A stretch of 64,000 bases of DNA from Oscillospiraceae bacterium (lineage in GTDB: Bacteria; Bacillota_A; Clostridia; Oscillospirales; Oscillospiraceae). Every line of letters begins with the position of its first letter. The stretch's first letter is position 1. Positions 72-50,002 of the stretch are shown here, in pieces. The stretch spans positions 1-64,000 of the forward strand of contig JAFUCD010000002.1 of assembly GCA_017459865.1 (NCBI GenBank), written 5' to 3'. The position numbers and the translations under genes are program-made. The notes beneath the pieces were generated by a model, which ran no database searches, was not told where the DNA came from, and saw nothing but the letters and a program-made list of their open reading frames with translations.

Positions 72-449
72 AGACTGCCAAAAAACTATGCTTCTGACTT
101 GCGAAACAGAGCAGCGGGGGAGCTGCGTCGGACTGACTTGCGCAAGTCACCATAAGAGGCAGAACCTCTTATGGATGACGGCGAAAGTCATTCCTCCTTC
201 ACCAACATGCACAAGCGTGTGCATGTTGGAAAGGAAGACCGGGGAAGCGGATATGGAGCCGGTGCGCATACGCGCAGCTGCGGAATGGAGCGCGCCCGGT
301 CTGACGTTAAGACCGCCTCGAGTCAAATCCAACGTCGCCGCAAATCGACTGAAAACCCTTGGTTTTCAGTCGATTTGCTGTTTGCACAGCAAACATATCG
401 GCGACTGCGCAGCTTGTCAAAAAGTCCGTCAAGGACTTTTTGACAAGCT
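72..449. mobile_element. Hairpin-rich repeat element A, long copy (A1), MITE-like
   Basis: This 378-bp block shares its left end (72-122) and right end (about 310-449) with the shorter copy at 31415-31620. Its ends are imperfect inverted repeats: AGACTGCCAAAAAA at the left, and AGCTTGTCAAAAAG when the right end is read on the other strand. Internally it is a chain of hairpins, for example AAATCGACTGAAAAC paired with GTTTTCAGTCGATTT at 351-385 and GCTTGTCAAAAAGTCC paired with GGACTTTTTGACAAGC near 412-448. The middle 123-310 is absent from the other copy and holds further hairpins (CATAAGAGG/CCTCTTATG, AACATGCAC/GTGCATGTT). No protein is convincingly encoded. It is probably a non-autonomous mobile or structured RNA repeat; the class is inferred. 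Confidence 0.75.
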
Positions 450-10308: not shown

Positions 10309-10313
10309 GCTTC

Positions 10314-10345
10314 ACCGAAAATGTGCTGCGCGCATTCCCGGTGAG
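10314..10345 (+). repeat. Imperfect hairpin after proS
   Basis: CACCGAAAATGTGC pairs imperfectly with GCGCATTCCCGGTG. The right arm is identical to that of the hairpin at 17905-17935. It may be a decayed terminator adjoining repeat B1. Confidence 0.45.
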
Positions 10346-10499
10346 GGGATCGCACTCCGCAGGGCGCTCTTGGACGAAAGTGCGACTTTCGCGAAAAGAG
10401 CGCCCTGCTCCGTGAGCGGTATTTTTGCCGCCCGGCAAAAGCCGCGCGGCAAAAACGATCGAACCCTATTCGCCGCTGCGGCGGCGAACTCTGCGAGGC
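10346..10499. repeat. Dispersed intergenic repeat B, copy 1
   Basis: Shares an ordered set of blocks with 49843-50002: GGGATCGC at the left, then a variable hairpin (here AGGGCGCTCTT / AAGAGCGCCCT), then the highly conserved core TATTTTTGCC...GGCAAAAGCCGCGCGGC..AAAAA.GAT, a GC-rich hairpin, and AACTCTGCGAGGC at the right. No coding potential stands out. Function unknown: a structured RNA or a repetitive palindromic element are both possible. Confidence 0.7.
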
Positions 10500-17890: not shown

Positions 17891-17904
17891 GTGCGCGCAA
17901 AAAT

Positions 17905-17935
17905 CACCGGGAATGCGCGTCGCGCATTCCCGGTG
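17905..17935 (-). terminator. Terminator of the pspA-TPM pair
   Basis: A 14-bp stem (CACCGGGAATGCGC / GCGCATTCCCGGTG) followed on the minus strand by ATTTTTG, immediately beyond the TPM-like gene's stop. Its right arm recurs after proS (10314-10345). Confidence 0.85.
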
Positions 17936-17941
17936 AAGGCG

Positions 17942-29744: not shown

Positions 29745-30629
29745 ATGGAACAACGAAACGACCCCAGAGCGCTCGGCAGGGTGCTGTTGTCGATGGCGAT
29801 CTTCGGCACGATCGGGCTGTTCCGGCGGCTGATCGATCTGCCGTCGAGCTTCATCGCGTTTGCGCGCGGCGTCATCGGCGCGGCGTTCATCCTTCTGCTG
29901 CTCGCCGTGCGCCGCCGGCGCTTTCAATGGGAGACGATGCGCGGATATTGGCCGCGCGTGCTGCTCTCGGGCGCGCTGCTGGGCTTCAACTGGATCATGA
30001 TGTTTGAGGCGTACCGCTTCACGACGGTGTCCGTCGCGACGCTTTGCTATTATATGGCGCCGGTGCTTGTGGTGCTGCTCTCGCCCGCGCTGCTGCGCGA
30101 GCGGATGAGCCCGCGGCGCATGCTGTTCATGGCGCTCGCGGTGCTGGGCATGCTGCTTGTATCGGGCGTGCTCGGCAGTCGGATCCAGGGCGCGCGCGGC
30201 GTGGCGCTGAGTCTTGCCGCCGCGGGGCTCTATGCCGCCATCGTGCTCATGAACAAGACCGTGCGCGGCGTGCCGGGGCTGGACAAGACGCTGGTGCAGA
30301 TGCTCGCCTGCGCAGTCGTGCTGCTGCCGTACGTGCTGCTCACGGAGCCGGTCGCGTCGCTTGCGTTCACGCCGCAGGCGGTCGCGCTGCTGCTTGTGGT
30401 CGGCGTGGTGCACACGGGCGTCACCTACGCGCTCTATTTCAGCTCCATGGACGGGCTGCGCGCGCAGACCGTCGCCCTCGCGAGCTATATCGACCCCGTG
30501 GTCGCGGTGGCGGTGTCGGCGCTGTTCCTGCACGAGCAGATGACGGCGCTGCAATGGGTCGGCGCGGCGCTCGTGCTGCTCGCCACGATGGCGGGAGAAG
30601 TCTTACCGGAAAGGGGAACGAAAGCATGA
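29745..30629 (+). CDS. EamA-family (DMT superfamily) transporter
   Basis: A 294-residue carrier with ten hydrophobic helices in two EamA halves (about 10-145 and 150-290). Typical features are the LRxxxRGVIG-like start of helix 2 and the C-terminal half ending in ...YIDPVVAVAVSALFLHEQMTALQWVGAALVLLA. It probably moves a small metabolite or amino acid. The ATG at 29745 is used; the frame's earlier TTG is the -35 box. It overlaps the flavodoxin gene by 3 bases. Confidence 0.9.
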   Translation: MEQRNDPRALGRVLLSMAIFGTIGLFRRLIDLPSSFIAFARGVIGAAFILLLLAVRRRRFQWETMRGYWPRVLLSGALLGFNWIMMFEAYRFTTVSVATLCYYMAPVLVVLLSPALLRERMSPRRMLFMALAVLGMLLVSGVLGSRIQGARGVALSLAAAGLYAAIVLMNKTVRGVPGLDKTLVQMLACAVVLLPYVLLTEPVASLAFTPQAVALLLVVGVVHTGVTYALYFSSMDGLRAQTVALASYIDPVVAVAVSALFLHEQMTALQWVGAALVLLATMAGEVLPERGTKA

Positions 30630-31369
30630 TCCTGTACTATACCGGCACGGGCAACAGCGCCCATGTCGCCAAAAGACTCGGCGCGCTGCTGCACGACGAG
30701 GTCGAGGACCTGTTCTCGCGCCTGCGCGACGGGGATCACACGAGCCTGTATTCCGACGACGCGTGGGTCATCGTCACGCCGACATACGGCTGGCGCATAC
30801 CGGGCATCGTAACGGACTGGCTGCGGAAGACGGAGCTTGTCGGAAGCCGGAGCGTGTATTTCGTGATGACCTGCGGCGACGGGATCGGCGCGGCGGGGAA
30901 GTACGCCGAAAAGCTCTGCCGCGACCGCGGGCTGCAGTATCGCGGCTGCGCGCCGGTCATCATGCCGGAAAACTACATCGCCATGTTCGACGCGCCTGGG
31001 GAAGCCGAGGCGCGGCGCATCGTCGCGGCGGCGGAGCCTGTCATCGCGGAGCTCGCGCAGAGGATCGCGGGCGGCGAGACGCTCTCCGTGCCTGTCGGGC
31101 GGACGGACGCCCTTCTGAGCGGCCCGGTGAACCGCGGCTTTTTCGCCTTTTGGGTAAAGGACCGGGCCTTCCGGGTCTCCGACGCGTGCGTCGGCTGCGG
31201 CGTGTGCCGTGACGTCTGCCCGATGCGGAACATCACGCTCGTGTCCGACCGCCCGCGGTGGAACGGGACGTGCACCCACTGCATGGCGTGCATCACCCGC
31301 TGTCCGAAGCAGGCGATCGAATACGGACGCATCAGCCGCGGCAAACCGCGCTACCAATGCCCGAAATAA
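30626..31369 (+). CDS. EFR1-family flavodoxin/ferredoxin protein
   Basis: A 247-residue electron carrier joining an N-terminal flavodoxin-like FMN domain (MILYYTGTGNSAHVAKRLG, the phosphate loop) to a C-terminal two-cluster ferredoxin domain with CVGCGVCRDVCP (about 188-199) and CTHCMACITRCP (about 216-227), each able to ligate one [4Fe-4S]. Proteins of this type shuttle low-potential electrons in anaerobes. The ATG overlaps the transporter stop (ATGA) and AAGGGGAA lies ahead. Confidence 0.92.
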   Translation: MILYYTGTGNSAHVAKRLGALLHDEVEDLFSRLRDGDHTSLYSDDAWVIVTPTYGWRIPGIVTDWLRKTELVGSRSVYFVMTCGDGIGAAGKYAEKLCRDRGLQYRGCAPVIMPENYIAMFDAPGEAEARRIVAAAEPVIAELAQRIAGGETLSVPVGRTDALLSGPVNRGFFAFWVKDRAFRVSDACVGCGVCRDVCPMRNITLVSDRPRWNGTCTHCMACITRCPKQAIEYGRISRGKPRYQCPK

Positions 31370-31379
31370 GAGAACATGA

Positions 31380-31413
31380 AAACGCCGGAAGCGCTGTTTC
31401 GCTTCCGGCGTTA
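31380..31413. repeat. Left copy of the 34-bp duplication flanking element A2 (terminator hairpin)
   Basis: AACGCCGGAAGCG / CGCTTCCGGCGTT hairpin just after the EFR1 stop, the natural terminator of the upstream operon. The 34 bases 31380-31413 are repeated without change at 31622-31655 on the other side of element A2. Confidence 0.85.
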
Positions 31414-31414
31414 G

Positions 31415-31620
31415 AGACTGTCAAAAAACTATGCTTTTGACTCGCGAAACAGAGCAGCGGGGGAGCTCGAGGGGGCAAGGCCCGCCTCGAATCAAATACA
31501 TTGTCGCCGCAAATCGACTGAAAACCAAGGGGTTTCAGTCGATTTGCTGTTTGCACAGCAAACATGTTGGCGACTGCGCAGCTTGTCAATAATGCCCGTC
31601 AAGGGCTTTTTTGACAAGCT
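31415..31620. mobile_element. Hairpin-rich repeat element A, short copy (A2), MITE-like
   Basis: A 206-bp element. Its ends are inverted repeats matching at 12 of 14 positions (AGACTGTCAAAAAA at the left; AGCTTGTCAAAAAA for the right end on the other strand). It is nearly identical to the outer parts of A1 (72-122 and 310-449) and contains the same hairpins, such as AAATCGACTGAAAAC / GTTTCAGTCGATTT and GCTGTTTGC/GCAAACA. It sits exactly between two identical 34-bp copies of a terminator hairpin. There is no transposase, so movement would need a partner in trans; this is inference. Confidence 0.8.
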
Positions 31621-31621
31621 G

Positions 31622-31655
31622 AAACGCCGGAAGCGCTGTTTCGCTTCCGGCGTTA
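31622..31655. repeat. Right copy of the 34-bp duplication flanking element A2
   Basis: Identical to 31380-31413. It now stands beyond the stop of the convergent lipoprotein gene and could act as that gene's terminator. Confidence 0.85.
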
Positions 31656-31670
31656 TTGTGTATCAACAGG

Positions 31671-32789
31671 TCAATCCTCCGCCGCGGAGATGCCGACGTC
31701 CTCCATGAAGTCGTACAGGGGGGTAAATTCGAGCTCGGCCTCGGTGTAGCGCTCCTCGATCGCGGCGGCCTCGGTGAGACTGATCTCCTCGAAGGTGCTG
31801 TCGTCGCTGAAGCTCACGGAGCTCCGGTAGCGCTCTCCGTCGCCGGAGATCACGGCGTCGAGCAGCCGCAGGCTGCTGTTATAGTAGCTGAACACGGCGA
31901 ACACGTTCTGCCCTTCCTCGTTTCGGGTGTTGAGCAGGATCTCGTTTCCGGTCGAGAGCGTGTGGCGGTTTCCGTCGGTGCCGGAGAGCACGTTCACGAT
32001 CCTGCCGTTGTAGACGGTGTAGAGATCATAGATCACGGGTCGGGCATACTGTCCGCTGCTGCCGATGAGCAGCTCCATGGTGCCGTTGTCGTCCAGATCG
32101 ATGAACGCATAGCCGATGTCGTGCTTGTTCGGCTCGGTGTCATACAGCGGGGAGAACAGCATCTCGTTGAGCACGACGGGCGCGTCGCCCTCCATCGCGA
32201 TCAGGGCGGCGCCCAGCGTGGAGAGAACGAGATCATAGCCGTGATAGTCGGAGTCCTCTGTCACGGCGAAGGAATAGTTGTCCTGCGCGGTCTCGGATCC
32301 GGCGGCGTCGGAGAGCGTGGAGTAGAACAGCGCGATGTAGGTGCCGTCGTTGGCGGTCACCTTGGTGAGATAGCCGTGGCGCTCCTCATAGTTTTCCCGG
32401 TCGCCATAGAGCACCATGCCCCAGAGCGGCTCCTGCGCGGTGCCGGACACGAGCAGCGCCGTTCCGTCGTCACACGGGGCGAGCAGCACGGCCTTGTAGG
32501 TGTCCTCCGTCTCGTCGAGCTTCACGCCCGCGGGGAGCACCGGCGCGCCGCCGAGCTTGTTTTCGTATTTCTCGCCCTCGCGGATGCCGCTGGAGATCTT
32601 CACGGGCATGCCGGTCAGATCATAATCGATCTGGTACTGGTCGACCAGCGCGCCTTTCTTGGAATAGATGTTCACGCGGGTGAGATATTTCGCTTCCTGG
32701 CTTCCGGTGTTGTCCTGCGGGGACGAGCGGGCACAGCCGCTGAACGCCAGCGTCAGCAGCAGGAGAAGACATACGAGTTTTCGACGCAT
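31671..32789 (-). CDS. Lipoprotein with FG-GAP/EF-hand-like DxDxxG motif
   Basis: A 372-residue exported lipoprotein with lipobox FSGC (Cys19). The central segment YAFIDLDDNGTMELLIGSSG has the Asp-rich calcium-loop pattern common in secreted clostridial lipoproteins; another lipoprotein of this window (53346) has the same motif (DLDRDGVEELLLW). The rest is beta-rich and without catalytic signature. Function unknown. It is followed at once by the duplicated hairpin of element A2 and preceded by the prfB stop 32 bases upstream, so it may be the second gene of the prfB transcript. Confidence 0.83.
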   Translation of the reverse strand: MRRKLVCLLLLLTLAFSGCARSSPQDNTGSQEAKYLTRVNIYSKKGALVDQYQIDYDLTGMPVKISSGIREGEKYENKLGGAPVLPAGVKLDETEDTYKAVLLAPCDDGTALLVSGTAQEPLWGMVLYGDRENYEERHGYLTKVTANDGTYIALFYSTLSDAAGSETAQDNYSFAVTEDSDYHGYDLVLSTLGAALIAMEGDAPVVLNEMLFSPLYDTEPNKHDIGYAFIDLDDNGTMELLIGSSGQYARPVIYDLYTVYNGRIVNVLSGTDGNRHTLSTGNEILLNTRNEEGQNVFAVFSYYNSSLRLLDAVISGDGERYRSSVSFSDDSTFEEISLTEAAAIEERYTEAELEFTPLYDFMEDVGISAAED

Positions 32790-49842: not shown

Positions 49843-50002
49843 GGGATCGCGCTTCGCTCCGGCGTCTCGGCCGCAAAAGCCTGCGCTTTTGCGAGAGAGC
49901 CGCCTCCGCTTCGCGAGAAGTATTTTTGCCCCACGGCAAAAGCCGCGCGGCAAAAATGATTGGATTCTATTTGCGGCGTGCGCGCCGCAAACTCTGCGAG
50001 GC
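49843..50002. repeat. Dispersed intergenic repeat B, copy 2
   Basis: Second copy of the repeat found at 10346-10499, with the same order: GGGATCGC, a variable hairpin (CGCAAAAGC.../GCTTTTGCG), the conserved core TATTTTTGCC..., a GCGGCG/CGCCGC hairpin and AACTCTGCGAGGC. It fills the intergenic space in front of hisS. No gene, T-box or riboswitch is seen. Confidence 0.7.

Follow-up and report, generated by a model that had tools for sequence, protein, structure and literature searches.

A 208-bp MITE flanked by two identical copies of a terminator hairpin in an Oscillospiraceae genome, and its candidate mover of the IS1182 family

Target duplications of transposable elements normally comprise a fixed, small number of bases and are used to identify the family to which a transposon belongs. 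The closest described systems include members of the IS1182 family of insertion sequences (IS). Passages of two papers (PMC4923244, PMC5678879) describe IS1272 and TnSha1 of Staphylococcus, both from this family, as targeting stem-loops with no sequence consensus, several of which are terminators; according to the same passages, the stem-loop hit by IS1272 is deleted or replaced, and no target duplication arises. Where they mention palindromic targets in the IS1182 family, both papers credit them to Siguier et al. A hypothetical route drawn for IS1272, ‘pathway b’ in Fig. 13 of PMC5678879 (2017), connects the element's 3′ ends with the 5′ feet of the stem-loop and would duplicate the stem-loop in full. 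Miniature elements (MITEs) of the IS1182-family ISMac2 are reported from Methanosarcina acetivorans in PMC3852290, the table of which apparently gives a 4-bp duplication or none, and ISs such as ISPpu9 reportedly insert at REP palindromes (PMC8450116, PMC1525189). Our literature search found no passage reporting the duplication of a whole hairpin target as observed; curators of ISfinder may have recorded such repeats.

The elements described below share with IS1272, as portrayed in those passages, the stem-loop targets and the presumed transposase family, but they duplicate the whole stem-loop. Hairpin duplication is the counterpart of the hairpin deletion by IS1272, and a single family may therefore show both outcomes. 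Pathway b is drawn, in the passages concerned, without an example, whereas we present many examples together with a correlation of lengths. An IS1182-family partner is a feature shared with the ISMac2 MITEs, which differ in the short or missing duplication if the columns of that table are taken as they read. Finally, the palindromes hit by REP-targeting ISs form a defined repeat family, in contrast to the hairpins of unrelated sequence that are copied whole here.

The DNA analysed, hereafter the window, comprises 64,000 nucleotides (positions 1 to 64,000 of contig JAFUCD010000002.1, assembly GCA_017459865.1) of an Oscillospiraceae bacterium related to rumen and gut species. Element A2 is located between two convergent genes, one flavodoxin/ferredoxin-like by eye (30626-31369, + strand) that ends at the left hairpin, the other lipoprotein-like by eye (31671-32789, − strand). 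Positions 31380-31413 and 31622-31655 are identical 34-mers in direct orientation, and each copy forms a hairpin whose 13-bp stem is perfect and whose loop spans 6 nt; the right copy is terminator-like on the + strand. An exact 34-bp repeat spaced by 242 bp lies far beyond chance expectation. The spacer, 208 bp long (31414-31621, + strand), is the element itself, which has no transposase gene; the sole open reading frame of at least 80 aa overlapping it is a mechanical one of 85 aa (31332-31589, − strand). An earlier note on this DNA had described a block of 206 bp with 12/14 inverted ends between identical 34-base copies of a terminator hairpin. The identical copies were borne out, the size was about one base off at each end, and 11 or 12 of the 14 terminal positions match by eye, depending on where the boundary is placed. 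The ends read GAGACTGTCAAAAAA (left terminal repeat, 31414-31428, + strand) and, inverted, CAGCTTGTCAAAAAA; the right terminal repeat TTTTTTGACAAGCTG (31607-31621) makes up the 3′ arm of a right-end hairpin (31579-31621, + strand). The A2 family has the properties of a MITE: it is short, lacks a transposase gene, carries terminal inverted repeats, occurs in several copies with shared ends and is flanked by a target duplication that corresponds to a single copy at the empty site.

Group IIC introns, which target terminators, were set aside, since no intron-encoded protein is present in the element and introns of this group are not known to duplicate their target. REP/RAYT elements were also set aside, because the element ends are common to DDE elements of the IS1182 family.

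A second element of the same family, A1 (71-450, + strand), is bounded by its own pair of hairpin copies (41-70 and 451-480); these agree in 27 of 30 positions and bear no relation to the hairpin of A2. Its core is interrupted by an insert of roughly 188 bp, a second, structured repeat (window 125-312, approximately), parts of which give nine matches in the genome RUG221. The 30-bp duplication of A1 is offset from its palindrome: by eye, its left edge lies 4 nt inward of the 5′ foot, and its right edge extends about 5 nt past the 3′ foot.

RUG221 (G001), an uncultured Clostridiales genome presumably of rumen origin, to judge from its name, was the closest comparison genome found (85% identity in a neighbouring protein), and both empty sites were taken from it, that is, from a species other than that of the window. 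In the locus that corresponds to A2 (L001), the lipoprotein-like gene has an ortholog (63% identical) followed by just one hairpin, which shares its stem core with the hairpin of A2, and no element is present. The gene at 30626-31369 is missing from this locus, and the empty site is therefore orthologous on one flank only. The site that corresponds to A1 lies upstream of a gene with 94% DNA identity; it too has no element, and its one hairpin is followed by TTGATTTTTAG. Judged by this comparison of sequences, a whole hairpin stands on both sides of the element, versus one hairpin in the related genome without it. This bears on the reading that tandem hairpins were present first, as a product of repeat expansion, and that the element went between them. 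Terminator regions may well contain more than one hairpin, but both tested orthologous sites have one, contrary to the earlier caution that the empty site might already contain two, and we regard prior tandem hairpins as extremely unlikely. The copy L156 argues weakly in the same direction: the gene upstream of it was matched in 32 of 40 genomes, and one obvious terminator follows it in 10 of 11 relatives viewed by eye (L252 was ambiguous), none being homologous to the duplicated hairpin of L156. Empty-site searches for L161 and L170, with 40 relatives each, gave short or weak matches in one and two genomes, respectively, the own genome excluded.

Related copies are found in other genomes. The A2 core gave eight matches in RUG221, of which only L082 and L088 are located between hairpin pairs (by eye), and matches in at least 32 of 200 genomes of the family, most of them covering only part of the core; at most four candidates were scored per genome, which makes 32 a lower bound. 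As a sample chosen independently of the flanks, we searched 250 genomes of the family for the left end SAGACTGTCAAAAAACTATG, allowing one mismatch, and took all 54 matches. These matches fall in seven genomes, and the reversed-pattern control listed zero. The right end was located in 31 of the 54, using right-end motifs that were composed after the loci had been viewed. Flanks were duplicated in 27 of these 31 full-length copies, with left/right alignment scores of 28-76, against a maximum of 23 among 930 mispaired left/right combinations. The remaining four (L153, L162, L166 and L205) scored 10-12 and by eye kept a hairpin at one end. Replacement of the IS1272 type, in which the target hairpin is lost without duplication, does not fit the two copies kept in 27/31. 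A hairpin (score of at least 8) stood at the left boundary of 45/54 elements versus 71/2160 random positions in the same loci. Among duplicated loci with long flanks on both sides, an open frame ended towards the element within 200 nt on the right in 13/13 and on the left too in 12/13, by a mechanical count that had no control.

These data also concern the possibility that the hairpins are terminators of the element itself, one per end, kept alike by gene conversion. The element does have internal hairpins, and the flanking hairpins are alike in most full-length copies; yet the duplicated hairpins vary between loci, in contrast to the constant element ends, and at both window sites a hairpin is present in the relative that lacks the element. 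We accordingly give this possibility very little credence. The earlier note's claim of insertion at terminator hairpins, with their duplication, finds support in the 27/31 copies, the two empty sites and the full IS1182 elements described below. The caveat in that note, that most other copies might lack flanking duplications, applies to truncated, core-only copies (2/8 between hairpin pairs in RUG221) and fails for copies with both ends (27/31 duplicated).

A scan across the order with the right end alone gave a much weaker signal: 29 exact matches in 21 of 295 genomes, the control with the pattern reversed yielding 8. As this 15-mer can encode FFDKL, many of the matches are probably coding. 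Eleven of the 29 have a hairpin at the end: three are duplicated (L258, L260 and L277), five are not (L264, L266, L270, L279 and L280), and in three the contig starts within about 250 bases (L278, L282 and L283). L256 shows a weak flank repeat (score 27) and no hairpin. Exact-pattern scans of genome-contig and viral-contig collections with the A2 core gave no match, nor did the core DNA match plasmids. The sole phage match, a 45-bp exact core match at L081 2879-2923, is to an unverified ‘bacteriophage’ record (MT838946.1), which is probably bacterial DNA. At L116, a terminator and the element start occur in tandem (by eye), as expected of unequal recombination between hairpin copies.

In genome G201, nearly the same left end as in A2 (at most one mismatch to the search pattern) opens a longer element that is cut by contig edges, and all eight left-end matches in this genome stand after a hairpin. 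The reading frame of the element includes MEEWRKDARRDAVITDIDALVPKDHLLRKIEKVMDYEWLYERLDPYYCHDNGRP. Its 61-residue N-terminal fragment matched the IS1182 model NF033551 with an E-value of 2.6e-8, under the full-length cut-off, had no Pfam match and was 53% identical over 57 residues to the transposase of L193. The latter came from a search for PF13751, which gave matches in 46 of 300 genomes, from which 30 loci were retrieved. L193 and L194 are complete ISs (NF033551 scores of 401 and 394 bits, E-values of 7e-120 and 1.2e-117, cut-off 270), flanked by identical hairpin copies of 30 and 29 bp, respectively. They are the only two among the 30 transposase loci with an exact direct repeat of at least 16 bp at IS distance; in many of the remaining loci, the ends differ or a contig edge truncates the sequence. 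Nine of the 30, picked by their CAG..TGTC ends (L189-L195, L197 and L198), have a hairpin at the right boundary in 9/9 cases and at the left in 4/6 measured. No PF13751 match at E ≤ 0.001 was found in RUG221, though elements are present there, and they may thus be orphaned. The targeting of palindromes by some members, a mark of the IS1182 family, is seen here in the flanks, in the boundary hairpins and in the plasmid and phage records.

The L194 transposase matched 1751 plasmid records, 331 of them at E ≤ 1e-50, and 17 phage records. From the matches listed we chose 15 records for spread, with flanks unseen; two are plasmids of one Peribacillus strain. In 9/15, identical palindrome copies of 19-30 bp, close to the palindrome in length, immediately flank the element: Sutcliffiella (30 bp), Peribacillus (24 bp), Streptococcus phages Javan87 (26 bp) and YS387 (24 bp), Lactococcus (20 bp), ISBspe1 of Alkalihalophilus (20 bp), Rhizobium NLR16a (19 bp), R. 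ruizarguesonis (24 bp) and ISEfa7 of E. faecium (20 bp). Four others (L285, L288, L291 and L293) have by eye hairpins at both ends that are unlike each other, as recombination between IS copies would give, and in the last two (L292 and L300) the one end that could be placed, the right, has a hairpin (by eye). The property is therefore not peculiar to relatives of the window. Most contigs of the related genomes are metagenome assemblies, and one might suspect the hairpin pairs of being assembly artefacts of repeats. The same structure in plasmid and phage records deposited as complete speaks against this, as does the size of the elements (120-210 bp), which should be within reach of short-read assembly, and the chance of such artefacts seems to us practically negligible.

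For 31 insertions (the 27 duplicated copies, A1, A2 and the full ISs L193 and L194), the duplication was measured solely from left/right similarity and the palindrome solely from the right flank; 28 passed the similarity filter, L152, L156 and L210 being dropped. Duplication length in these 28 ranges from 21 to 42 bp with a median of 30 and correlates with palindrome length (r = 0.91). Counted over the 27 copies and A2, both duplication edges lie 0-1 nt from the stem foot in 21/28. As the length of the duplication tracks that of the hairpin, the stagger seems to be set by the structure of the target. A fixed stagger of about 30 bp, combined with a preference for terminator regions, would account for the median and for the offset of A1 from its palindrome, the fit to whole hairpins being coincidental; it is very unlikely given the spread of 21-42 bp that follows the hairpin, and given the 19-30 bp duplications on plasmids and phages, which are close to their palindromes.

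The proposal we favour is that A2 is a non-autonomous MITE moved in trans by an IS1182-family transposase onto the 5′ feet of an extruded hairpin; resting on comparative sequence evidence, we hold it to be highly probable. The transposase would recognise the palindrome as an extruded hairpin or cruciform and, on each of the two strands, attach a 3′ end of the element to the 5′ foot of the hairpin. The long stagger would then be filled by gap repair, by which the entire hairpin would be copied and the duplication length would be set by the target's structure. Intergenic terminators may be hit most often because they form strong, short palindromes and an insertion there disrupts no gene. Loop orientation adds a complication. 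The loops are direct in A2 and in 20 of the 27 pairs (weakly so in L152 and L164), ambiguous in one and opposite in six (L155, L161, L210, L216, L217 and L224, from genomes G144, G192 and G220). Simple gap repair does not predict these six opposite-loop pairs; template switching that inverts the loop within the palindrome after insertion is a possible explanation.

A broader proposition, which we put forward with some confidence, is that a large part of the IS1182 family, in Clostridia and Bacilli through to Rhizobium and Streptococcus phages, possesses a structure-reading transposase. Such an enzyme would cut an extruded hairpin at both of its 5′ feet, and the target duplication would equal the whole hairpin, with a length dictated by the target rather than the enzyme; one target would become two with every insertion, and the neighbouring genes would receive a structured RNA in their 3′ UTRs. 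A duplication length seemingly set by the folded target provides a simple way of testing whether DNA secondary structure is read in vivo by a DDE transposase. Moreover, a terminator hairpin duplicated around a short insert is a genomic signature able to mark such elements, and the same signature predicts the transcript ends of neighbouring genes.

Only the palindrome is copied, and the original U-tract consequently remains with the copy farther from each gene. In 28 insertions (the 27 copies, A1 and A2, with L152 excluded), at least five T in the 10 nt at the stem end were counted on the + strand in 1/28 proximal versus 16/28 distal copies, and on the − strand in 4/28 versus 22/28. A terminator scan of A2 returned two terminator-like sites, both of them distal copies, whereas shuffles average 0.6. 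The neighbouring genes probably still terminate, with the element placed in the 3′ UTR. Hence, the earlier assertion that the host gene keeps its terminator needs rewording: the U-tract counts show that the gene-proximal hairpin loses its U-tract, while termination is probably kept by means of the distal copy, as the A2 scan also suggests.

The core of the element is structured as well. A2 with both hairpin copies folds with a z-score of −12.4 against shuffles, and A1 alone, without flanking copies, with −12.5. Seven copies, the window A2 and six from RUG221, were aligned. The best-conserved stretch among them is the internal module AGAGCAGCGGGGGAGCTCGAGGGGGCAAGGCCCGCCTCGA (31451-31490, + strand); downstream of it, the consensus structure comprises a closed outer stem (31503-31574, + strand) that encloses two hairpins, one of them variable (31509-31547). 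Over the whole consensus structure, 13/36 pairs have changed on both sides and still pair, and 93.6% of cells are paired. None of 500 shuffles reached any of five measures, and the slid controls were lower too, a comparison in which the consensus structure is favoured, as it was derived from the same sequences. The core may act as RNA or as single-stranded DNA. It is not needed for target choice, as L258, L260 and L277 combine similar ends and a duplicated hairpin with unrelated interiors (by eye). No Rfam family reached the gathering score in the window, and 12 related loci gave only sub-threshold Rfam matches at the element.

Genome G004 (L083 and others) contains 31 matches of the inner module (core 36-80), some about 100-150 bp apart and none extending over the terminal repeats. 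Two further repeats were seen in the window: one at 10407-10476 and 49908-49977, with hairpin-like GGCAAAA..GCCGCGCGGCAAAA parts and copies 81% alike, and a hairpin repeat at 10312-10347 and 17904-17939, the two copies of which match in both orientations.
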